Below, piece by piece: positions 28,377 through 40,726 of a DNA stretch of 64,000 nt. The DNA is from Armatimonadota bacterium. Its GTDB lineage: Bacteria; Armatimonadota; Zipacnadia; Zipacnadales; JABUFB01. Positions within the stretch are counted from its first letter, which is position 1, and each line of letters starts with the position of its first letter. Both the position numbers and the translations under genes were made by a program. Where the stretch lies: positions 186,001 through 250,000 of the forward strand of contig JABUFB010000008.1 in assembly GCA_013314775.1 (NCBI GenBank). The letters run 5' to 3'. The notes under the pieces were generated by a model. It searched no databases. It saw nothing but the letters and a program-made list of their open reading frames with translations, and was not told where the DNA came from.

Positions 28377-29447
28377 GTGGACGCTCGCATCAGTGAACTG
28401 AATGAACATATCGCAAAGGAATCCCAGTTTGTGCGCGCGCTGCGGGACCAGATGGCGCGGGTCATTGTTGGCCAGACTGACCTGATCGACAGGCTCATCC
28501 TGGCACTTCTCGCTAACGGGCACGTTCTTGTCGAGGGCGTGCCCGGTCTTGCAAAAACTCTCGCCGTGCGGACCCTCGCCGGGGCCATCGACACCGGCTT
28601 CCAGCGCCTGCAGTTCACTCCGGACCTTCTCCCCGCGGACATCGTCGGCACGATGGTGTATGACGAGCGCTCTCGTGACTTCTTCGTGAAGAAAGGCCCG
28701 ATCTTCTCCAACCTTATCCTGGCCGACGAGATAAACCGCGCACCGGCCAAGGTCCAGAGCGCCCTGCTCGAAGCCATGCAGGAGCGCCAGGTGACCATCG
28801 GCGGGGAGACTTTCCGTCTGGATGAGCCCTTCCTCGTGCTGGCCACCCAGAACCCCATCGAGCAGGAGGGCACTTACCCCTTGCCTGAAGCCCAGGTGGA
28901 CCGCTTCATGCTCAAAGTCCGGGTGGGGTACCCGGATAAGAGCGAAGAACTGGGCATCCTCCGACGCTGGGCGCGCGCAGAGGGTCCCCGAGCGGAGATC
29001 GTGTGCGAACCGGGGGACATCCTGCGAGCGCGACAGGTTATCCACGAGATTTATATGGATGAGCGCATCGAACAGTACATCGTGGACCTGGTCTGCGCCA
29101 CCCGTGATCCTCGCGGAGCCGCTCAGGATGCCCGAGCCCGCTTGCGCGCCAGGGTCGATCTGACGCTGGAGCAACGCCGGGCGTGGGAAGAGAGTATTCA
29201 GACCCTCGAGAATTGCGATGCTCTCATCGACTACGGCGCTTCGCCCCGCGCTACGATCTATCTCGCGGTCACAGCCCGCGCACATGCTTTCATGGAAGGC
29301 CGCGGGTATGTGGTTCCGGATGACGTGCTGGCGGTCGGCCCGGATGTCCTGCGCCACCGCATTCTGCTTTCGTATGAGGCGGAGGCCGAGGACCTCACCA
29401 GCGAGGACCTGGTGGACCGGATCTTCAAGACGGTGGAGAGCCCCTAG
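28377..29447 (+). CDS. MoxR family AAA+ ATPase
   Basis: A 356-residue chaperone-like AAA+ ATPase, first gene of a Bat-type operon. Walker A is EGVPGLAKT (near 52), Walker B is LILADEINRAP (near 120), the sensor region is ATQNPIEQEGTYPLPEAQ-like and the arginine finger lies after DRFMLKV. MoxR proteins usually act with VWA-domain partners, and two VWA proteins plus a DUF58 protein follow. GTG start. Length is slightly above the usual 310-340 because of an N-terminal helix. Confidence 0.94.
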   Translation: MDARISELNEHIAKESQFVRALRDQMARVIVGQTDLIDRLILALLANGHVLVEGVPGLAKTLAVRTLAGAIDTGFQRLQFTPDLLPADIVGTMVYDERSRDFFVKKGPIFSNLILADEINRAPAKVQSALLEAMQERQVTIGGETFRLDEPFLVLATQNPIEQEGTYPLPEAQVDRFMLKVRVGYPDKSEELGILRRWARAEGPRAEIVCEPGDILRARQVIHEIYMDERIEQYIVDLVCATRDPRGAAQDARARLRARVDLTLEQRRAWEESIQTLENCDALIDYGASPRATIYLAVTARAHAFMEGRGYVVPDDVLAVGPDVLRHRILLSYEAEAEDLTSEDLVDRIFKTVESP

Positions 29448-29668
29448 GGCAAGGGCGACCCGCTGCCTTCCGTTGCGCGGGGCATGCGACTCGCCTGCCA
29501 GCCGTCTGCCTTTCGTCGCGTTGAGGAGGCGTTCCGCCTGTCGGCCGTTGGTCGCTGTCGTAGCCGACCTGAGGGGCCGCATAGGCGAAGCGCCTCGGTC
29601 AAGAAGCGCCGAACCTATCCAGCCCTGCTGTGCCCTGTGCCTTTGACGCCCTCCAGGAAGGATCGACC

Positions 29669-30550
29669 GTGGATCAGGCTGACATTCTCCGCAGCGTGCG
29701 GCGAATCGAGATCCGCACCGATCGGCTCACCACCGATCTGTTTGCGGGCGGCTACCATTCGGTCTTCAAGGGGTTGGGCCTGGAGTTCAATGAAGTCCGC
29801 GAGTACACTCCTGGCGACGACATCCGCAGCATCGACTGGAATGTGACCGCTCGCACGGGCAGCCCGCACGTCAAGAGTTTCGTCGAGGAGCGCGAACTCA
29901 CCGTCGTTCTCGTGGTGGACGCCAGCGCCAGCCTGGATTTCGGCTCCCAGCAGCGCACAAAGGCCGAAACCGCGGCAGAAGTCTGTGCCCTCTTGGCATT
30001 CTCGGCCACCAAGAACCATGACAAGGTCGGCCTCGTCATGTTCACGGACGATGTTGAGCTCTATCTGCCGCCGCGCAAGGGTCGCCGGCAAGTCTTGCGG
30101 GTCATCCGCGAGGTCCTCTATTTCCAGCGCAGGAGCCCTGGCACCAACCTGCGCAACGCCCTGGAGCACGTCTCGCGCACTCTCACCCGCCGCGCCGTGG
30201 TCTTTGTTGTCTCGGACTTTCAGGACGTCGGCTACCTGGATGCTCTGACTATTCTTGAGCGGCGGCACGACGTGATCGCGGTGGACTTGTATGACCCGCG
30301 TGAACGCGGGCTGTGCAATGTCGGGCTGGTCGAGTTGGAGGACGCCGAGACAGGCCGCCTCACACTGGTTGATACTTCGGCACCGGGGTTTCTCCGCCGC
30401 CACGCAGCCCGCGCGGAGGCTGAAGCCGCGGCACGCCGCGAGCGCTTCCTGTCCCGGGGCATCGACCTCGTCCCGATCACCACAGAGCAAACGCCGGTCG
30501 ATCCGCTCGTCGCGTTTTTCGAACGCCGACGCAAGCGGCTGCGTCACTGA
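29669..30550 (+). CDS. DUF58 domain protein with VWA-like fold
   Basis: A 293-residue cytoplasmic protein. GTG 29669 is chosen because GGAAGG lies seven bases upstream; the frame is open further back but without a ribosome site. The DUF58 signature EFNEVREYTPGDDIRSIDWN is at about 38-57, followed by a VWA-like metal site DASAS near 88. DUF58 proteins are regular partners of MoxR. A 221-base gap separates it from moxR, unusually long for this operon, and contains small repeats of the AGGCG-n3-CGCCT type. Confidence 0.93.
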   Translation: MDQADILRSVRRIEIRTDRLTTDLFAGGYHSVFKGLGLEFNEVREYTPGDDIRSIDWNVTARTGSPHVKSFVEERELTVVLVVDASASLDFGSQQRTKAETAAEVCALLAFSATKNHDKVGLVMFTDDVELYLPPRKGRRQVLRVIREVLYFQRRSPGTNLRNALEHVSRTLTRRAVVFVVSDFQDVGYLDALTILERRHDVIAVDLYDPRERGLCNVGLVELEDAETGRLTLVDTSAPGFLRRHAARAEAEAAARRERFLSRGIDLVPITTEQTPVDPLVAFFERRRKRLRH

Positions 30551-30556
30551 TTCACC

Positions 30557-31531
30557 ATGACAGTCCCCAGGCTCCTGGTCATCAGCTTGCTGTTCGTCCT
30601 GGCGTCCGACCCGGCGCTGCCCCCTCGCGCGCTTGCAGCCGAAGACCTGTCCGGCGTCCAGGTGACTGCAACGTTGGACAAGGACCGAATTACCATCGGC
30701 GACGTGTTCGGTTACGAGATCCGCATCACCGCGCCAAAAGGCGCGCGCATTGACACGCCGGACCTCGCTGAGAAGCTTGCGCCCCTCGAGGTCCGTGACC
30801 TCAAGCGAACCGACGAAACCAGCAAAGACAAGCTCAATGTGACGCTGGCGTACAGGCTGCAGGTCTTCGAAGTGGGGAAGAGGACCATCAGCGGTCTGGA
30901 GATTCCGTGCAGTCTCCCTGGCAAGGAGAAAGCCGCGCAGGCACGCGTTCCGGGGGTGACTCTTCAGGTTGCCGGCGTCGTGCCTCCCGATGCCAAAGAC
31001 ATCCAGGATATTCGCGACCCGGTACCGATCCGCATGAGACGATCCGATTGGCTGCTTGCGGCCCTGATTGCCGCTCTGCTGGTCGCGGTGCTGGTTGTCC
31101 TGGGACTGTGGATGGCACGGCGTCTGCGCGATCGCCGCCGGCGTCCGGAGCCGCCCAAGGTCGTCACCGCGCAGTCCTGGGCATTGTCTCGTCTGGCCGA
31201 GCTGGAGCGACGCAATCTTCCCGCACTCGATGACTGCCCCGGGCACTATGCGGAGTTGGTGGAAATACTGCGCGAGTTTGTTGAGGCGCGATATGATCTG
31301 CCCGCCAACGAGGGCACGACCGCAAGCCTGCTGCGCGATTTGTGGCGGGCAGGCGCCGATCCGGGCTTCGTGCAGCCCCTGATGGCGGTGCTGAGAGAAG
31401 CCGACCGCGTGCGCTTCGGTCGTATTCCCGTGGGTCCTGCAGACGCCGGCACGGCCCTGGCGACCGCGCGCGAAGCTATCTGGATCGCCGGAGCTTCAGA
31501 CCCGAAACCTGAAGAGGAGGACGCGGGTTGA
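30557..31531 (+). CDS. Membrane-anchored BatD/DUF4381-like protein
   Basis: A 324-residue protein with a signal peptide (about 1-27, ending ALAA), an Ig-like BatD-type domain (VQVTATLDKDRITIGDVFGY onwards to about 150), one membrane helix (170-192) and a cytoplasmic helical domain with the FVEARYDLPANEGTTASLL pattern. The same pattern recurs in the C-terminus of the large BatD protein at 34483, so this may be a short paralogue. It sits between DUF58 and the first VWA protein and overlaps the latter. Confidence 0.8.
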   Translation: MTVPRLLVISLLFVLASDPALPPRALAAEDLSGVQVTATLDKDRITIGDVFGYEIRITAPKGARIDTPDLAEKLAPLEVRDLKRTDETSKDKLNVTLAYRLQVFEVGKRTISGLEIPCSLPGKEKAAQARVPGVTLQVAGVVPPDAKDIQDIRDPVPIRMRRSDWLLAALIAALLVAVLVVLGLWMARRLRDRRRRPEPPKVVTAQSWALSRLAELERRNLPALDDCPGHYAELVEILREFVEARYDLPANEGTTASLLRDLWRAGADPGFVQPLMAVLREADRVRFGRIPVGPADAGTALATAREAIWIAGASDPKPEEEDAG

Positions 31532-32535
31532 TGTTCTTCGCTTCTCCCTGGGCATTTTTCGGGCTGCTCGCGGTGCCTCTGCTAGTCTGGCGGGCCTTGC
31601 GCCCTTACCGCAACCGCCAAAGCGGTATCAGTTTCTCCAGCGTCGCGGACTTGAGCGACGGCGTCTCCCTTCGCGGGATCCTGTCGGCGAGTGTGCCGTG
31701 GATCAAGATTGCGGCCTTGATCTTGCTCATTATTGCTCTTGCGCGCCCGCAGCGGCCGGCTTCTGTGGACAAGGAGTCGAGTCAGGGGATCGACATCATG
31801 CTCGCCCTGGATATCTCCGGGAGCATGCTTGCGGAAGACTTCAAACCCAAGAACCGCTTTGTGGTCGCCCGGGAGACCCTGGAACGTTTCGCACTCCAGA
31901 CCGTGAATGACCGCCTGGGCCTGGTGATCTTCGCCGGACAGGCTTTCACCCAGTGTCCTCTGACATTGGACAATGAGATGGTCGCTGAACTGGTCCGTGG
32001 AGTGGAGCAGGGGATCATACAAGACGGCACGGCCATCGGCATGGCCATCGCCACTTCGGCCCACCGTCTGCGAAACTCCAAGGCAAAGAGCCGCGTCATT
32101 ATCCTCATGACGGATGGGGTCAATAACAGTGGGAAAATCGACCCCATCACTGCAGCACGTGCGGCGGCGGCTCTCGGGATCCGCATCTACACGGTGGGTG
32201 TCGGCAAAAAGGGCGGAGCACCCATCCCCATCGGGGACGGACTGTTCGGGAAACGCTACCTGACCAATCCTGACGGAACCCTTCAGATGACAGACATTGA
32301 TGAAGAATCTCTGCGCAAAGTTGCACAGATCACCAACGGCAAGTACTACCGAGCTACAGACGCCACAGCCCTGCAGTCGATCTACAATGAGATTCGCGCC
32401 ATGGAAAAGAGCAAGTTCGAGCTGAAGAAGCGGCGCCCGGTGGTGGAGGAGTTCACGCGCTTCCTTTGGCCCGGCGTTGTTCTTCTTGTGATGTGCATTC
32501 TGCTGGAGGAAGTGTTCGCGCGAAGGACGCCCTGA
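31531..32535 (+). CDS. batA: VWA domain protein, BatA type
   Basis: A 334-residue inner-membrane protein with two N-terminal helices (about 8-20 and 55-72), a von Willebrand A domain (88-290) and a C-terminal helix. The MIDAS motif DISGS (in LALDISGSMLAED), the threonine in QDGTAIGMA and the aspartate in LMTDGVNNSG are all present, so metal binding is likely intact. ATG at 31531 overlaps the previous stop by one base; TTG at 31528 in a TTGA overlap is an equal alternative, and GAGGAGG favours it slightly. Expected to form a complex with MoxR and the neighbouring Bat proteins. Confidence 0.92.
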   Translation: MFFASPWAFFGLLAVPLLVWRALRPYRNRQSGISFSSVADLSDGVSLRGILSASVPWIKIAALILLIIALARPQRPASVDKESSQGIDIMLALDISGSMLAEDFKPKNRFVVARETLERFALQTVNDRLGLVIFAGQAFTQCPLTLDNEMVAELVRGVEQGIIQDGTAIGMAIATSAHRLRNSKAKSRVIILMTDGVNNSGKIDPITAARAAAALGIRIYTVGVGKKGGAPIPIGDGLFGKRYLTNPDGTLQMTDIDEESLRKVAQITNGKYYRATDATALQSIYNEIRAMEKSKFELKKRRPVVEEFTRFLWPGVVLLVMCILLEEVFARRTP

Positions 32536-32538
32536 CCT

Positions 32539-33648
32539 ATGCACGGGTATTTCACGTGGAACAACCCGGCCGTCCTGCAGCTTCTGTGGTTTGCCCTGTT
32601 GCTGGTGTGGATAGTCTTCCGCGCCGCCGGCAAACGCCAGGCAGCCCTGGGCGCCTTCCTGCAGGACAGGTTCCGCCCGGCAGACTGGCGCTGGCACCGA
32701 CGTCTTCGTTTGCTCAAGGGGCTCCTGTTGGTGGCCGCGATGTGTCTGCTCGTGATCGCCGCGGCTCGTCCCAAGCTGGGCACGGAGGTCCAGAAGATCC
32801 CCGCTCGCGGTGCAGACGTGGTTTTCATCCTGGATACCAGCGACAGCATGCTGGCCCAGGATGTGAAGCCCAGCCGCCTGGAGGCGGCCAAACAGGCGGC
32901 ACTGGCGCTGATAAACCGGCTTCAGGGCGACCGCATCGGCATCGTGGTGTTTGCCGGCAGCGCGTACATGTACTCGCCGCTCACCATCGACCCGGATGCG
33001 GCCGCGATGTTCGTGACCAGCATCGAACGCGGCTCCGCGCCTGCTCCCGGAACTGCCCTGGGGGGGGCACTGGCGTCCGCGGTGCGCCTTCTGGAAAAGG
33101 CCGAGTACAAGTACCGGGCCATCGTGTTGTTTAGCGATGGCGAGGACCACGAGGGCTTCACGCTCAATGACGTGAAGCAGGTGAGGGCGAAAGGCATCCA
33201 GATCCATGTTGTCGCGCTCGGGAGCACTGAAGGAGCCCCAATCCCGGTTGAGGAAGTCCAGAGGGAGAAAACGGACCCGGCTCGCGACCCACTGGGGATG
33301 TTCAGTGAACTGTTCGGCGATGATGATGGCCCCCGTACAGTGAAGTCGCGGTTCAAGCAGGACCGCAATGGCGAGATCGTGATCACGCGCATGAATGAGA
33401 AAGTGCTCGCGGAGATTGCGAAGGAGGGTGGCGGGGTCTTCGTTCGCAGTTCCGAGAGCGGGATCAACATCGACCGGGTCTATCAGGCCATCGCCAGCCT
33501 CGAAAGCGCTGAGGTTGGATCTTACCAGTTCACACGCTACGCCGAGCGTTTCCAGTGGCCACTCGGCCTGGCCGTCCTGCTTCTGGTCATCGAATCACTC
33601 CTACCGGCAGCACCCCGGCGCGGCCCACGGGAGCGCAATCATGTATAG
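32539..33648 (+). CDS. batB: VWA domain protein, BatB type
   Basis: A 369-residue membrane protein of the same design as BatA: two N-terminal helices, a VWA domain and a C-terminal helix. The MIDAS motif is DTSDS in ILDTSDSMLAQD, with LFSDGEDHEG as the later aspartate site. An extra loop after residue 235 (VEEVQREKTDPARDPLG) marks it as BatB-like. It begins 3 bases after batA. Two VWA proteins in tandem with a TPR protein are the hallmark of the Bacteroides aerotolerance (Bat) operon. Confidence 0.92.
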   Translation: MHGYFTWNNPAVLQLLWFALLLVWIVFRAAGKRQAALGAFLQDRFRPADWRWHRRLRLLKGLLLVAAMCLLVIAAARPKLGTEVQKIPARGADVVFILDTSDSMLAQDVKPSRLEAAKQAALALINRLQGDRIGIVVFAGSAYMYSPLTIDPDAAAMFVTSIERGSAPAPGTALGGALASAVRLLEKAEYKYRAIVLFSDGEDHEGFTLNDVKQVRAKGIQIHVVALGSTEGAPIPVEEVQREKTDPARDPLGMFSELFGDDDGPRTVKSRFKQDRNGEIVITRMNEKVLAEIAKEGGGVFVRSSESGINIDRVYQAIASLESAEVGSYQFTRYAERFQWPLGLAVLLLVIESLLPAAPRRGPRERNHV

Positions 33649-34444
33649 ATTGACCCGTTCAAAGCTGATCAGCCTGCTACCCGCGATGTTTGCGCTTATG
33701 CCCGTGCTCATGGGCATGTCCCTTCCAGGCGAATTTGCGAGGCTGGTGGAAGCCGGCAATCGCTTGTACAGTAAGGGTGAGTTCAAGTCTGCCCGCGAAA
33801 AGTATAACAAAGCTCTGGAGCTTGATCCCGAGAGCGCCGAAGCGGCCTTCAACGCCGCCGCCGCAGACTACCGACTCGGAGATTTCGACGGGGCACTGAA
33901 AGGCTTCTCGGAAGCGGCCAAGGCATCCGATGGAGAATTGGCGCGGTTCGCCCACTACAATGCCGGCAACGCTTGCTTTCGCCTGGGCAAGCTGGACGAA
34001 GCGATCGAGGCTTACAGGAAGGCCCTGACGCTGGACCCCACCGACGAGCGGGCCAAGTTCAACCTGGAGTTCGCCCAGCGCAAGCAGCAGCAACAGCAGC
34101 AGGGCGCCGGGGGCAAGCACGACAAGAAGGATCAGCAGAAGCAGGAAAAGCAGCCGGAGCAGAAGACTGACGCGGACAAGGAGAAGCAAGAAGGCCAGCA
34201 GTCGCAGGACCAGAGCGAGGACAAGGACGAGACGAAACCCGAAGACCAGCAAGGCGAAGATCAGCAAGGCCGGGACCAGCAAGACGCGGACAAGCAGCAG
34301 GATGCGGCCCGGGAGACCCGCCCGATGGACAAAGAACAAGCCGACCAATTGCTCAAGGCCCTGGCGCAGGAAGATGCGAACGTGCAGAAGATCATCCGCC
34401 GTGTACCCATGACCCCCCCTGCTCCCACGGATAAGGACTGGTAA
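33641..34444 (+). CDS. batC: TPR protein with acidic/glutamine-rich tail, BatC type
   Basis: A 267-residue exported protein starting inside the end of batB (8-base overlap). After a signal peptide come about three TPR units (NRLYSKGEFKSAREKYNKAL, then AHYNAGNACFRLGKLDEAIE). From residue 148 a low-complexity region of Gln, Lys, Glu and Asp (34085-34330) precedes a short conserved-looking end, QADQLLKALAQED. This matches BatC/BatE-like TPR proteins. The frame is open upstream of 33641, but that part is the shadow of batB. Confidence 0.88.
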   Translation: MYRLTRSKLISLLPAMFALMPVLMGMSLPGEFARLVEAGNRLYSKGEFKSAREKYNKALELDPESAEAAFNAAAADYRLGDFDGALKGFSEAAKASDGELARFAHYNAGNACFRLGKLDEAIEAYRKALTLDPTDERAKFNLEFAQRKQQQQQQGAGGKHDKKDQQKQEKQPEQKTDADKEKQEGQQSQDQSEDKDETKPEDQQGEDQQGRDQQDADKQQDAARETRPMDKEQADQLLKALAQEDANVQKIIRRVPMTPPAPTDKDW

Positions 34445-34482
34445 CTCTGCGGACCGCAAGCTCAACAGACTACCGCCCTTTC

Positions 34483-36222
34483 ATGGCGCTCGTGGCTTTG
34501 GTCGCGAGCACCTTGGCCGTGTGCTGCTTTCCGGCGCCAGGCTGGGCGGAGGCAACCATAGAGACCGACGTGAACCGTTTCTCGCTCTCCACGGATGATC
34601 TGCTGTACATGAGCGTAACAGTGAACAGCGACCCGTCTCAGGACGTGGAGGAACCTGAACTCGAGGAATCCCCCGATTTCGTTGTCATCGGCGTCCCCAG
34701 CCGGGAGAGCGGGTTTAGTCTCGTCAATATGAAGGGGACGAAGTACATCCGCAGGACGTATACCCTCCAGCCGCTTCGGGCGGGCGAACTCACGTTGCCG
34801 GTCGCCACCGCGGTCGTGGACGGGCAGCTGCTGCGCGCCAAGCCGATCACGGTCAGCGTCCAACGTGGCGCCGGCGGTGGCGCCCAGTCTGCCGGGCCTA
34901 CGCCCCAACCGGCGCCGTCAGGTTCAGGCGCAGTGCCTTTCGACAGTGATCAGGCTTTTGCCATCGTCCTGCGCGTCGAGCCCCGCGAGGCCTTCGTGAA
35001 CCAGCAGTTGACCGCCATCGTGGAATACTACACTGCCTACCGTCTACCGCATGGACCGGGCCAGGAAGCGCCGCATGCCGAAGGATTTGTCGCCGAGGCC
35101 CTTCCGGATCCCGATCCGGAATACGTCACCGTTGATGGTCGCCAGTACGTGCGTGCGACCCGCCGCTGGGCTCTCTTCCCTGCAACTCCCGGCAGCCACA
35201 CGATCAAGGCCGCACCCGAGGAACTGATGCTGCCCCCTGTGTACCAGCGCGAGGTTTTTGAAAGCAACCAGGTCCGCGTGTCGGTGAAACCGCTTCCGAC
35301 GCCCCCCGCGGGATTCAGCGGTGCGGTGGGGCAGTTCACAGTCCAGATCAGCGCCGACAAGCAGCGCGTGAAAGCCGGCGAAGGTCTCACGGTGCGTGCC
35401 ATCGTGGACGGAACCGGGAACATTCAGGCAGTCCGGGCGCCCGACCTCAAGGTGCCGGACTGGTGCAAGGTCTACCAGTCAGGCGAGAAACGCACTTCCG
35501 AGCCGCGCACACTGGGCGGCCGGCTGCTGCTGGGTGGACGAGCGGAATTCGAGTACCTCGTGGTGCCCCGTCGCGCGGGACAACTGGAGATTTCTGGCGC
35601 TAGCCTGCGGTACTTCGACCCCGCGGCTCGCGCATACAAGACCGCCCAGAGCGCTCCCGTTTCGGTGACGGTGACCGAAGGTGAGGTTATTGAGGAAGCG
35701 ACATCGGCTGCGGGGGATACCGCGCTGATGCACATCCACACCGACCGACCGCGTCTGCATGCACACCCGCCGCTGCCCTCGACGCCCGTGATCCCCACAG
35801 TGCTGACTGCCTGCGCTCTCGCGCTGGCAGGTTCCGCTGCGGTCAGGGTCAATCGGCAGCGGCGTCTGTCCGACCCCCAAGGCTTCCGGGCATCCGCCGC
35901 GGCAAGGCAGGCTCGGCGCTCACTTGCGTCTGCGGAGAAGCTCCGCGGCAATGCCGTGGTGGATGCGGTCGCGGAGACGGTCCGGCAGTACCTTGCCGAC
36001 CGCTTTGCTCTGCCCGCGACCGGCATCGCGCTCCAGGAGATCGCGTCCGAGTTGGAACGGCGCGGCCTGGCGTCTCCTGTCGTGGGGCGGGTCACCACGC
36101 TTCTATCGTCCTGCGGCGACATGCGCTTCGCCCCTGGGGGCGCCGCAACCTTGGAACCGGCGGCGCTTATTGACCAGGCCAAGGAACTGATCGACGCTCT
36201 TGAGAAGGCGATGGACCGATGA
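34483..36222 (+). CDS. batD: BatD-like multi-domain envelope protein
   Basis: A 579-residue exported protein with a signal peptide (ending WAEA), a row of three Ig-like beta domains (about 22-400; ETDVNRFSLSTDDLLYMSV begins the first), one membrane helix near 440-458 and a cytoplasmic helical domain with QYLADRFALPATG. This is the BatD layout (usually 550-620 residues). No clear ribosome site precedes the ATG. It overlaps the next gene by ATGA. Confidence 0.88.
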   Translation: MALVALVASTLAVCCFPAPGWAEATIETDVNRFSLSTDDLLYMSVTVNSDPSQDVEEPELEESPDFVVIGVPSRESGFSLVNMKGTKYIRRTYTLQPLRAGELTLPVATAVVDGQLLRAKPITVSVQRGAGGGAQSAGPTPQPAPSGSGAVPFDSDQAFAIVLRVEPREAFVNQQLTAIVEYYTAYRLPHGPGQEAPHAEGFVAEALPDPDPEYVTVDGRQYVRATRRWALFPATPGSHTIKAAPEELMLPPVYQREVFESNQVRVSVKPLPTPPAGFSGAVGQFTVQISADKQRVKAGEGLTVRAIVDGTGNIQAVRAPDLKVPDWCKVYQSGEKRTSEPRTLGGRLLLGGRAEFEYLVVPRRAGQLEISGASLRYFDPAARAYKTAQSAPVSVTVTEGEVIEEATSAAGDTALMHIHTDRPRLHAHPPLPSTPVIPTVLTACALALAGSAAVRVNRQRRLSDPQGFRASAAARQARRSLASAEKLRGNAVVDAVAETVRQYLADRFALPATGIALQEIASELERRGLASPVVGRVTTLLSSCGDMRFAPGGAATLEPAALIDQAKELIDALEKAMDR

Positions 36223-37043
36223 TCGCCTCTGACCGTCTTCTGCTGCGGTTCGCACTCCTGCTGGCGGCATCGACGGCCGCCCTGCCGCCCTGGTCTGCTT
36301 GCGCGAGCTCCGTTGATGTCGCCGAGATCTTCGCCCGGGCCAACGAGTCCTACGACAAAGGAGACTTCGCCTCGGCGGCGGCCGGCTACGCGCGGTGCGT
36401 CGAACTGGGCGCGGACGGGGCCGATGTGCTCTATAATCTGGGCAATGCTCGCGCGCGTTCCCACCAGCCCGGTCAGGCAATGGCCGCATACTGGGCCGCG
36501 AGACGGATCGCGCCGCGCGACCCTGATCTGCTGTCGAATATGGAGCAGCTCACCGCAATGCGTGCCGACGCAGCGCCTCAGGTCCCGCGTTCGTGGCTCA
36601 TGGCGGCAGCCGGGGGGCTTGTGCTCCGATTCACGGTGAACGAACTGGCCGGCGCGGCGCTTCTGGCGCTACTCGCTCTCACAGTGGCCGGTGTGTTGCT
36701 CATCCTGCGTGAAGGCCCGCAACGCCGTCTATGGGTGGTGTTCCTGGTGTTGGCGCTGGCGACAGTGGTTACAGGCGCCTCGGCTTGGGCGAAGTGGGAC
36801 CACGACTACAGGCATCCCCCCGCTTTTGTGACCGGCGACCCGGCAACCATGCGGTCCGGCCCGGGGAGGCATTTCGAGGTCACGGGCAATCTGCAGGCCG
36901 GCACGCAGGTGGAGCCGATCCGGCGGTCGGGGATATGGACCGAGATTCGCCTCGCAACCGGCAAGCGCGCCTGGTTGGAGGAGAGCAGTCTGGCGCGACC
37001 GCCGGAGGCCCGCGCATCCGGCAAGCACTCGAAAGCTGAGTGA
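36219..37043 (+). CDS. batE: TPR plus SH3 membrane protein, BatE-like
   Basis: A 274-residue protein: signal peptide, two TPR-like repeats (IFARANESYDKGDFASAAAG and VLYNLGNARARSHQPGQAMA), two membrane helices near 145-180 and a bacterial SH3 domain (MRSGPGRHFEVTGNLQAGTQ onwards) in the C-terminus. This matches BatE. The start ATG lies in an ATGA overlap with batD. The SH3 domain may bind peptidoglycan, which would place the complex at the cell wall. Confidence 0.87.
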   Translation: MIASDRLLLRFALLLAASTAALPPWSACASSVDVAEIFARANESYDKGDFASAAAGYARCVELGADGADVLYNLGNARARSHQPGQAMAAYWAARRIAPRDPDLLSNMEQLTAMRADAAPQVPRSWLMAAAGGLVLRFTVNELAGAALLALLALTVAGVLLILREGPQRRLWVVFLVLALATVVTGASAWAKWDHDYRHPPAFVTGDPATMRSGPGRHFEVTGNLQAGTQVEPIRRSGIWTEIRLATGKRAWLEESSLARPPEARASGKHSKAE

Positions 37044-37059
37044 CGCACACAGGAGGCCG

Positions 37060-39375
37060 GTGGACACGCAGCGCAGTCTGACGCCGTACTACTTCGTGGT
37101 CGCCGGTGTCATCCTCCAGGGATTGTCTCCCGTCCTGACCAAGCTACTGCTCATGGACGGCCTCTCCCGGGAGTCAGTTGTCACTGCCCGCTATCTACTG
37201 GCCGTGGCGCTGATGATACCCTTCGGCATCCCCCACAAGCGCCGCGATGGGCCCACCGAGCGGCCGCGACCCCAGGACTGGCTTGGACTGTTCCTCGTGG
37301 GCGCCCTGGGTTCGGGCGTGGGTGCGCTGCTTTTCACCGCGGCCCTGGAGTTTTCCTCCGCCGGCGTCGTCAATTCCATCTCGAAAACCGCGCCGATCTT
37401 TGTCGCGTTCCTAGGCTACCTGACTCTGAGCGAACGGGTCAGTTCCGTACGCCTGCTACTCGTTGGCGCGATGGTCGGCGCTGACGCACTGATCGGCCTC
37501 GGCGAGCTCACCTTTGGTGTCTCTGAGGCCCGAACACGACTTCTTGGGGATGGTCTCGCGTTGTTGGCCGGTATCACCCGTGCTACCGCCGAGATCCTCG
37601 CAAAGAGCGCTCTTTGTCGCTTCAGCCCCTCCACAGTTACTCTTTGGCGGTTCGGCGGCGGTTTGCTCGTGACCGCCAGTGTATCCCTGGTGAACGGTTC
37701 GTGGCCCGACCTGATGGAACTCGACCCGAGGGGCGTTTTCCTACTGCTTCTTCTCGGCGGTGTCAGCACAGCCCTGTCCATGTATCTGTATTACCGCGGC
37801 ACCGCCGAGATACCGGTGCATGTCGCGGTCAGCCTGAAGATATTGGGAGCCGTGGTCACCGCGGTCGTGTCCTGGGTGGTGCTGCGCGAGACCCTGAACC
37901 TGTACCATGTGGCGGGTATGGGCGTGCTGATCTCCGGCGGCTACCTGCTGGTGATTCGCACTGCCCGGGAAACGCCTGCAGTCCCGGGTGAGCTCGAGGA
38001 GCCTGCCCCTGCCGCTGCACCTGAGCCGCCTACCCGGGGCCAGCTCCGGGCGCGACTGACGTGGATCATCGCCTCGATCATCGTCGCGACACTCCTCGCT
38101 TCAACGCTCCTGTCCATCCGGCACACCAACAACGTCGTCCGGCAGCAGACGCGGCTTACCATGGGCAAGGTGGCGGCGGTCCTGGTTCAGCTGACATCGC
38201 TGGAGGACCCGATATCGCGCAATTCGCTCCAGCAGTTCATCGACCGCGTTGTGCGTCATCGCCTGCGGGATGACTTGTTCTCGGTGGACATTGTCTACAT
38301 CGTGGTGGCGGACGAAAACGACAATGTGATCGCCTTCGCGGTGAATGAGGATATCGCGCTGGTGACCCGCGATGGGCGTCCGTACCGGCCCACTGACCCG
38401 CGCGCCGCGCAACAGCTGGTAGCAATGTCCCGCGCTGGGCAACTCGGGCGGCGGCAGGACCTGATCCCGGTGCGCGCAACCCTACGGGGCAACGGGCACG
38501 AAGCTGAACGCAGCCCGTACGTGGAGATTGGGTGCAAGCGCAGCATCGCCAACCGGGTGCTGGCGGAAATCGCGATCCGCAACCTGGTGCTGGTGCTGGT
38601 GCTGGTGGCCCTGGGCATCGCCGTTGCGTCCGGCTGGGTGCGCCGAATGACTTCCCCCCTGGAGCGCCTGGCGATCTCAATGCAGCGCCTCTCGGGTGGC
38701 GAACTGGACCTGCCGTTGTTCTCCGAAGGTCGGGGCGAACTGCGGGAGATGGGCGATTCCCTGCAGGATCTGCGTGAGGCCCTGCGTCTCGGCGGAGCCC
38801 TGCGCCGGTCGCTGGTGAACTACGCGAGCACCCAGCTTGGACACGCAGTCCCCGGCTGCGAGAGTGCCGGTGATCCCGCCGAGACCCGGGAGACCGTGCT
38901 GATGTTCGTCCGTCCGCCCAGTCCCGCTCCGGGCGAGTCATCTCCCGACATTCCTGCGCTGGTGGATCGCGTGGTGACCACGGCTCTGCGCAATGATGGG
39001 GAGATCCTCGGCCAGGCGGATGGCCAGGTGGTGGTCGGATGGAGCGGAGGCGGGGATGAAGACGCCCTCTGGGCAGCAGCGACGGCGCTCCGGGTGGTGC
39101 ACTCCGATCCTGTGGGCGGACATTCGGCTCCCACGGTGATGCTCAGTGCGCAGTCCCTTTCATGCGCCGGACCGGGGTTGGATCTCATGCGCATCGCCGG
39201 GGAACTCCCAGCCGTGCCTGAGCCTGGCGCTGTGTATGCTGATCGAGGCTTCGTTGAACTCGCCGGGGGACTGGTGGAGGCCGTTGAGACCGGCGATCCG
39301 GCGGTGTGGCGCATTGTCGGAATGCTCGAGGATGCGGGTGATTTCGCGGGGATTGCGGGTGTGGAAGAAGGATAG
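37060..39375 (+). CDS. Fusion of EamA transporter, HAMP sensor module and degenerate cyclase-like domain
   Basis: A 771-residue protein with an unusual domain order. Residues 8-300 form a complete ten-helix EamA/DMT transporter with the two repeats (LTLSERVSSVRLL and VVLRETLNLYHVAG are the repeat ends). A Pro/Glu/Ala linker follows, then a membrane helix (333-353), an extracytoplasmic Cache-like part (354-508), a second helix (508-526) and a HAMP domain (527-580). Residues 610-740 resemble a class III nucleotide cyclase fold (ETVLMFVRPP, then GQADGQVVVGW) without the first metal aspartate. GTG start with AGGAGG close by; 16 bases after batE. A transporter joined to a sensor suggests ligand-coupled signalling, but the output domain is probably inactive as a cyclase. 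Confidence 0.8.
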   Translation: MDTQRSLTPYYFVVAGVILQGLSPVLTKLLLMDGLSRESVVTARYLLAVALMIPFGIPHKRRDGPTERPRPQDWLGLFLVGALGSGVGALLFTAALEFSSAGVVNSISKTAPIFVAFLGYLTLSERVSSVRLLLVGAMVGADALIGLGELTFGVSEARTRLLGDGLALLAGITRATAEILAKSALCRFSPSTVTLWRFGGGLLVTASVSLVNGSWPDLMELDPRGVFLLLLLGGVSTALSMYLYYRGTAEIPVHVAVSLKILGAVVTAVVSWVVLRETLNLYHVAGMGVLISGGYLLVIRTARETPAVPGELEEPAPAAAPEPPTRGQLRARLTWIIASIIVATLLASTLLSIRHTNNVVRQQTRLTMGKVAAVLVQLTSLEDPISRNSLQQFIDRVVRHRLRDDLFSVDIVYIVVADENDNVIAFAVNEDIALVTRDGRPYRPTDPRAAQQLVAMSRAGQLGRRQDLIPVRATLRGNGHEAERSPYVEIGCKRSIANRVLAEIAIRNLVLVLVLVALGIAVASGWVRRMTSPLERLAISMQRLSGGELDLPLFSEGRGELREMGDSLQDLREALRLGGALRRSLVNYASTQLGHAVPGCESAGDPAETRETVLMFVRPPSPAPGESSPDIPALVDRVVTTALRNDGEILGQADGQVVVGWSGGGDEDALWAAATALRVVHSDPVGGHSAPTVMLSAQSLSCAGPGLDLMRIAGELPAVPEPGAVYADRGFVELAGGLVEAVETGDPAVWRIVGMLEDAGDFAGIAGVEEG

Positions 39376-39433: not shown

Positions 39434-40726
39434 TCATGCTGCTCTTGCGGCTTTATTGAGGCGGTCGTAGTCACCGTTGAGTAGGGCGCATCGGATCGCC
39501 AGCACCGCATCGGCACCCGATCGCGTCCAGCGCATCCCCGCCCGCTTCATCCGATGCCCAATCACAACTTTGCACGCCGCTTCTACCGGTCCGCTGCCGA
39601 TCATCATCCCTCGGGCGCGGAACTGCGGGTAGGCCATGCGCTTGCGGTGCCGGGTGAAATACCCCGTCTCGGTGCGTATCACCGCGGCTGCTTCTGGCGT
39701 CGACGCTTTCATTCGTCTCAAGGAACGCAGCAGGCTGCGTGGACCCGTGTCACGCAGCTTCCGGCAATGCTCCCGGGCCCACCGATCACCCGCCGCACTG
39801 TCCTGCGCATACAAGGCCCGTCGCAGTGTCCAGATGTGCTCGCAGGCGTGCCAGTAGTCCACGATCTGCGTCGCGTCTGGGAAATGGTGGGCTGCCAGAT
39901 TCCAGATCCACTCCGCCCCATCCCCGATCACCACCTGCTCTTGTGCCTGCTCCACGCCCTGGAAAACCGCCGCCGCATACATTCGTTCTGCGAACTGCTC
40001 CGCAGGCTCCTGGGCCGCGACATAGTAGCTGTGGATGGCCTCATCGTTCCCTTCCGCGTCCGGTTCCCCTCTGTAGATCACCCCCGCCTTAATCTCATGC
40101 CACTGACCGTCAATATGCGCGTGAGTGCCATCCACAGCCACGTACACACGTCTTGGGGCTTGCGCCACAAGGGGCAGAACTTCCCCATCAAACACCGCCG
40201 CTATCTGTTCCCTCTCCTGCTCCCGCAGCTTCGGACCAAGCTCATAACTGACCTTTTCCGCGCAGCTTTCCACCATGTGCAGACCCGTTGTCAACTCCAC
40301 AAGCTCGCACATCTCCTGATACGTGACACGACCAATGAAATGCCCCGCTAACGCCTTCACAGCAGGCGTCCATTGTAGGCCCGTTACTCCCTGCCGAGCA
40401 TCCCACGGGATGTGTCCCGTCTTGCACCCACGGCAGTAGTAGTAGCTGCGCAGGACCTTCACCGTACCTGCCAGCGTCATCAAATACTTGGGGCGGTAAT
40501 CAATGAATTTCGCCCGACGACCGCACGAGCAGGCGATACTGCAACCCTCGTAACTCGCGCGATGGCTGATCTGCTCTACCCCTTCTTCCACGACTACCTG
40601 AGCCACCTGGCGACCGATCGTGACCGCCATTTCTTCCGCTTCCTGCACGCTGTTCACCGACAAATGTTCTTTGCACCAAGCGCGGAAGCCATCAAGCAGG
40701 TCCTGCATCTGTTCGCGTGGAACCAT
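39434..40726 (-). CDS. ISKra4-family transposase
   Basis: A 430-residue DDE transposase that looks intact. A zinc-finger-like start (CSCGRRAKF and CRGCKTGHIPWD) is followed by the catalytic core: first aspartate in YVAVDGTHAHIDG, second in VIGDGAEWIWN, and the terminal acid region in MIGSGPVEAACKVVIGHRMK. The C-terminus MKRAGMRWTRSGADAVLAIR is typical of ISKra4 proteins. Start ATG lies six bases after AGGGGTGA, which is inside a hairpin arm. Length matches the family (about 400-450). Confidence 0.9.
   Translation of the reverse strand: MVPREQMQDLLDGFRAWCKEHLSVNSVQEAEEMAVTIGRQVAQVVVEEGVEQISHRASYEGCSIACSCGRRAKFIDYRPKYLMTLAGTVKVLRSYYYCRGCKTGHIPWDARQGVTGLQWTPAVKALAGHFIGRVTYQEMCELVELTTGLHMVESCAEKVSYELGPKLREQEREQIAAVFDGEVLPLVAQAPRRVYVAVDGTHAHIDGQWHEIKAGVIYRGEPDAEGNDEAIHSYYVAAQEPAEQFAERMYAAAVFQGVEQAQEQVVIGDGAEWIWNLAAHHFPDATQIVDYWHACEHIWTLRRALYAQDSAAGDRWAREHCRKLRDTGPRSLLRSLRRMKASTPEAAAVIRTETGYFTRHRKRMAYPQFRARGMMIGSGPVEAACKVVIGHRMKRAGMRWTRSGADAVLAIRCALLNGDYDRLNKAARAA

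Follow-up and report, generated by a model that had tools for sequence, protein, structure and literature searches.

Organization of the Locus

The window, i.e., the 64,000-nt stretch of an Armatimonadota contig that was analyzed, carries a Bat gene cluster that opens with a MoxR-type AAA ATPase gene (28377–29447, plus strand; named by inspection) and continues at 29630–37043 (plus strand) with genes for a DUF58-like protein, a membrane protein, BatA, BatB, a BatC-like TPR protein, BatD, and a BatE-like TPR-SH3 protein (36219–37043). Only 16 nt separate the stop codon of this last gene from the start codon of the gene of interest (37060–39375, plus strand), in agreement with the preliminary description, which had placed it directly after a Bat operon. 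The gene starts with GTG downstream of an AGGAGG motif (37051–37056), ends with TAG, and encodes 771 amino acids; full-length relatives exist, and the reading frame contains no internal stops, i.e., it is one uninterrupted gene. A UPF0236-type transposase gene (39437–40726, minus strand) lies between it and a CBS gene. The transposase gene is absent in the congener G001 (locus L060), where only about 110 bp occupy this position, and it seems to be an insertion confined to the window species or its near kin.

Domain Architecture of the Fusion Protein

The 771-aa protein consists of a 10-helix EamA/DMT transporter, a further transmembrane helix (TM11), a PDC/Cache-type sensor, TM12, a HAMP domain, and a degenerate class III cyclase, in this order. 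The preliminary description had read a ten-helix transporter, a second membrane unit, a HAMP domain, and an output domain in one frame, and every one of these modules was recovered by Pfam, hydropathy, or structure models. The transporter (residues 10–299; 37087–37956, plus strand) matched PF00892 in two stretches, as expected of tandem EamA repeats (1.5e-32; score 113.1 vs. a cut-off of 28.2), and its hydropathy plot showed nine peaks plus a weaker one at 151–192. Its nearest solved relative was LicB (7b0k, 7.8e-4), and Pfam detected EamA in all 29 fusion members. As a putative transporter, this part of the window protein would carry a small molecule.

A Pro/Ala-rich linker that is variable in the alignment (residues 300–334; 37957–38061, plus strand; dN/dS of 0.42 for residues 306–330) leads to the second membrane unit at 38062–38640 (plus strand), defined by hydropathy, model, and Foldseek as TM11 (335–353), an extracytoplasmic PDC/Cache-like sensor (354–508), and TM12 (509–527); by hydropathy, the loop between the two helices spans 155 residues. 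The HAMP domain (residues 528–576; 38641–38787, plus strand; PF00672, 6.6e-9, 36.4 bits vs. a cut-off of 25) follows TM12 immediately, as in HAMP receptors. Because the number of EamA helices is even, the linker, HAMP, and output domain are predicted to be cytoplasmic and the sensor loop to lie outside. The output domain, assigned by fold tests, covers residues 605 to 760 approximately (38872–39339, plus strand), and is best kept at residues 644–680 (38989–39099, plus strand), where the DG hairpin, W661, E667-D668, and the next helix form invariant or nearly invariant columns among degenerate members. Pfam returned no match above cut-off for the last 197 residues alone. With a transporter and a putative signaling output joined in one polypeptide in about 30 genomes, the family would qualify by its architecture as a transceptor.

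Distribution of the Fusion

Within the class Candidatus Zipacnadia (Armatimonadota; PMC10290634), a sensor-region profile located the fusion in 31 of 46 genomes, as a single copy in each; it gave no match in 245 further genomes of the phylum, the one phylum covered by the whole-genome survey. Matched frames were 680–860 aa long, except for contig-cut pieces and the protein of genome G021 described below. The long fusion also recurred repeatedly in a search of 60 relatives, and among the 29 aligned relatives, EamA, sensor, and C-terminal region were present wherever the protein was not truncated by the end of a contig. Recurrence in about 30 independent genomes rules out an assembly artifact or chimera, the possibility that the preliminary description had raised against its own reading. 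Beyond the phylum, a single-sequence contig search, which detects close relatives only, returned just two Armatimonadota loci, and a plasmid search with the sensor-output half gave no occurrence. The survey further brought out three features absent from the preliminary description: the class-specific single-copy pattern, relatives with an intact cyclase, and a constant solute-binding lipoprotein partner.

Sensor and Output Domains

The sensor matched Pfam sCache_3_2 below threshold (0.0043, 17.6 bits vs. a cut-off of 28.4), and a sensor profile gave no significant match among PDB sequences. A model of the domain (pLDDT 80) was matched by Foldseek to WalK including its HAMP (9a5d, an integrative model; 6.5e-8, Z 13.4), a score inflated by two long helices; the sensor-only crystal chains, which are a fairer measure, gave Z scores of 9.2 (KinD), 8.8 (YycG), and 8.5 (CitA), with DcuS also at about 8–9. 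The model thus supports a PDC/Cache-like fold between two helices, and the family name is tentative.

An intact class III cyclase is present in four relatives from three families (loci L012, L013, L025, and L028, in genomes G012 and G007, G042, and G041). PF00211 matches it with E-values of 2e-24 to 1.7e-32; among solved structures, 6fht, 2w01, and CyaB (3r5g) come closest. These intact members have the motifs FADxxGFT, DKYMGD, and VxGDxVNxAQRxES, and with them both metal aspartates, the Lys/Asp pair, and the Asn/Arg pair; the Lys and Asp are those expected for ATP. In the alignment, the window protein has FVR in place of FAD and ADG in place of MGD, so that both metal aspartates are lost, and the VGDxVNxAQRxE stretch is deleted; neither the Lys/Asp base-selection residues nor the Asn/Arg transition-state residues are left. 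The preliminary description, in which the output was cyclase-like without the first metal aspartate, was right but understated the loss. The remaining relatives that reach this region resemble the window protein, with aspartates, Lys, Asn, and Arg lost and VGDxVN deleted.

Tests of the fold used degenerate members only, which avoids circularity. The degenerate-only profile matched the intact profile (97.9%, 3.5e-13) and, in the PDB, 2w01 (3.5e-7) and 6fht (2.5e-6), which bears out the cyclase fold suspected for residues 610–740. The top Foldseek matches of a degenerate-only AlphaFold model (pLDDT 82) were class III cyclases (1.9e-5), and VIA-align superposed the model on a class III cyclase with Z 15.5 and an rmsd of 3.2 over 154 residues. 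These profile-profile, profile-PDB, and model-fold comparisons rule out a chance likeness to cyclases and, together with the losses seen in the alignment, lead us to conclude that the output domain of the window protein is a class III cyclase fold without catalytic residues.

The window genome encodes five further class III cyclase domains (PF00211; L034–L038), all on other contigs, and cyclic nucleotide signaling probably exists in this genome apart from the fusion protein.

A Solute-Binding Lipoprotein Accompanies the Fusion

In 27 of the 31 fusion genomes, the fusion is followed immediately, in the same orientation, by a gene for a solute-binding protein (SBP); the two genes mostly overlap or are spaced by only a few bases. 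The SBP belongs to PF13343 (SBP_bac_6), with 67–86 bits in four of the five proteins scanned and 45 in the fifth against a cut-off of 24.6, and most members have a lipobox ending in GCP, which is absent in L061. No ABC permease lies beside the SBP gene at the loci examined. Of the 46 class genomes, 30 were matched by an SBP profile, and a further one, G034, has an SBP fragment at the edge of a contig; the SBP was thus present in all 31 genomes with the fusion and in none of the 15 without it. The two genes are not adjacent in the window's genus. In the window species, the SBP gene lies on the opposite strand about 35 kb from the fusion (C8:260114–261337, equivalent to L098:10114–11337, minus strand); in G001, G011, and G016, it is found on contigs other than that of the fusion. 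The SBP gene of the window species adjoins genes resembling TrkA-N and TrkH (potassium uptake; named by inspection).

The protein of G021 (L059:3473–4828, minus strand) has no EamA part, and there is no room for one upstream; sensor, HAMP, and pseudo-cyclase are kept and are followed by the SBP gene. Since the sensor half and the SBP persist here without EamA, we conclude that the SBP and the signaling part form a unit.

Structural relatives of the SBP included AfuA (4r72), P5PA (6wce), HitA, and 7f6u, with E-values of 1e-23 to 1e-32, and the score for NCBIfam phnS2 was far below its cut-off. Because the relatives bind ligands as diverse as ferric iron, sugar phosphate, and PLP, among others, homology assigns none to this SBP. 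The top match, 7f6u, may be a metal-citrate protein, for which the literature search gave no support. In family f6 (L068, L069, L076, L078, and L079), a conserved secreted protein of ∼300 aa that resembles an outer-membrane beta-barrel is encoded after the SBP.

One genome, G008 (L091, C40:92000–106000), has a BatA gene and was found to contain neither fusion nor SBP; its family usually has both, and joint loss is likely.

Conservation of the Bat Linkage

The Bat cluster lies upstream of the fusion in the same order in families f1, f4, and f6, and in the 17 examined genomes of these families, the fusion is the next gene after the BatE-like gene, at a distance of tens of bases to about 100 bp. 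Bat genes in f5, f7, and f8 are located away from the fusion, and a BatA search in f2 and f3 gave no match, though fusion and SBP are kept. Linkage to the Bat genes is therefore not constant across the class, and families without a BatA match or with Bat elsewhere rule out the operon as an obligate partner. The position noted in the preliminary description is conserved in part of the class and does not define the fusion gene.

Evolution and Selection

In a tree of the EamA-sensor region, the four proteins with intact cyclases fall on one side of a branch with support of 92/99. With f7 and f8 placed outside the order, the intact cyclase is most simply read as ancestral, with catalysis lost once after f5 branched, a reading that hinges on the position of the root. 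Relative to the congener G001, dN/dS was 0.04 in the sensor and 0.07 in EamA, compared with 0.19 in the output domain and 0.06–0.12 in neighboring genes; relative to G002, for which dS is near-saturated, that of the output domain was 0.51. On these values, the output domain is under relaxed purifying selection and is still constrained.

Proposed Mechanism and Alternatives

We propose, with a probability of roughly one half, that the fusion protein is an SBP-coupled transceptor that first signaled via cAMP and whose output is now a pseudo-cyclase. The architecture suggests that the window protein might both transport and signal; in the window species, the catalytic residues are missing. The membrane-anchored SBP would present its ligand to the sensor, in the manner of LuxP with LuxQ and AioX with AioS, and possibly also to the transporter; the sensor would read loading and transport and pass a signal through HAMP to a cytoplasmic dimer. 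In the ancestral state, the output would have set the cAMP level, and the intact members presumably make cAMP. In the window lineage, where catalysis was lost, the cyclase-fold dimer would most likely act as a protein switch, docking a partner or setting transporter activity. The complete chain, i.e., an SBP that serves both DMT transporter and sensor within one polypeptide, with cAMP as the first output and, after one loss of catalysis, a pseudo-cyclase acting by contact only, we consider unlikely.

The SBP might instead feed EamA directly, in which case the protein would be a binding-protein-dependent secondary transporter outside TRAP/TTT that sensor and pseudo-cyclase merely gate. The SBP always accompanies this transporter and has no ABC permease as a neighbor; conservation of EamA within the family is high, with a mean column identity of 60%, and the EamA-SBP distance correlation was still the highest after control for BatA (0.60), in a mirror-tree comparison that did not discriminate between transporter and sensor. 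Against this, G021 retains SBP and sensor half without EamA and, to our knowledge, no DMT protein needs an SBP, and we hold the idea to be improbable. The same doubt applies to the suggestion that, once cAMP signaling was lost, the cyclase domain became a decaying relic, leaving transporter, sensor, and SBP as the only working parts. The output domain does have the highest dN/dS of the three main domains against both G001 (0.19) and G002 (0.51), as well as the lowest conservation and a variable length and C-terminus; across many genera of f1–f4 and f6, however, every complete gene still encodes it, its fold and E-DD-LRA helix are kept, and dN/dS stays well below 1.

Class III cyclases act as dimers, and the pseudo-cyclase could pair with one of the five further PF00211 proteins encoded in the window genome and control it, much as the non-catalytic half does in a heterodimeric cyclase. 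None of the five is near the fusion, no cyclase emerged as a conserved neighbor, and with the entire VGDxVN stretch a part of the shared active site is gone, all of which makes such pairing very unlikely. A functional role of the fusion within the Bat (MoxR/VWA) envelope system, which it would report to or be regulated by, would fit its place behind the BatE-like gene in the 17 genomes of f1, f4, and f6; we find it quite doubtful, given Bat genes elsewhere in f5, f7, and f8, fusion and SBP without a detected BatA in f2 and f3, and the BatA gene without fusion and SBP in G008. The Bat operon does not tell the function of the fusion in any case, since bat deletion in L. biflexa produced no oxidative phenotype (PMC3557215).

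Comparison With Known Systems

A search of the literature for proteins combining EamA, cyclase, and HAMP found no description; papers retrieved for a fusion of EamA and GGDEF were, as far as their accessible text goes, judged unrelated. The literature searched describes no DMT transporter that depends on an SBP and no transceptor made of a DMT transporter and a cyclase; relative to it, a DMT transporter combined with a Cache-like sensor, a cyclase fold, and a dedicated SBP is new.

Individual parts have clear counterparts. The Bat operon of Leptospira and Bacteroides clusters MoxR, DUF58, and Bat genes as in the window, where the fusion is an addition (PMC3557215). CyaB (3r5g), Cya2 (2w01), and the cyclase in 6fht share the fold of the output domain, and their catalytic motifs are common to the intact members; they have no EamA transporter, and the window protein lacks the catalytic residues. 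WalK/YycG, KinD, CitA, and DcuS have a PDC/Cache-like fold between two helices, as in the fusion, with HAMP next in WalK, but differ in output and are only about 9% identical to the fusion sensor. AfuA, P5PA, HitA, and 7f6u belong to the fold family of the SBP_bac_6 partner; these proteins serve ABC transporters, whereas the SBP of the fusion has no adjacent ABC permease.

In LuxP/LuxQ, a membrane sensor with an extracytoplasmic domain works with a dedicated periplasmic binding protein. In AioX/AioS (PMC5908839), as for the fusion, the dedicated periplasmic binding protein is encoded with such a sensor. Both systems differ from the fusion, which joins transporter and cyclase fold, in that their sensor polypeptide is without a transporter and has a kinase output.

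The family also offers a natural before-and-after series on one scaffold, with the cyclase intact in three families and dead in the others, which permits a direct test of how a signaling enzyme turns into a pseudoenzyme and which output remains; the SBP partner is a handle for finding the ligand. The closest parallel to the whole is CbrA, which both transports L-histidine and signals according to the accessible parts of the reports (PMC7096432, PMC9100948, PMC13022988). Like the fusion, CbrA and the other SLC5-STAC histidine kinases, as presented there, unite a complete transporter and a signaling output in one polypeptide. CbrA comprises an SLC5 transporter, a STAC/PAS linker, and a histidine kinase, with no SBP mentioned in those portions, whereas the fusion comprises DMT, Cache-HAMP, and cyclase fold; a Pfam search for SLC5, STAC, and histidine kinase domains in the fusion found none, which sets it apart from the CbrA type. 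Single chains that transport and signal are few (CbrA and its kin), and the present family extends them to another transporter superfamily, to a cyclase as output, and to a binding protein as constant partner.
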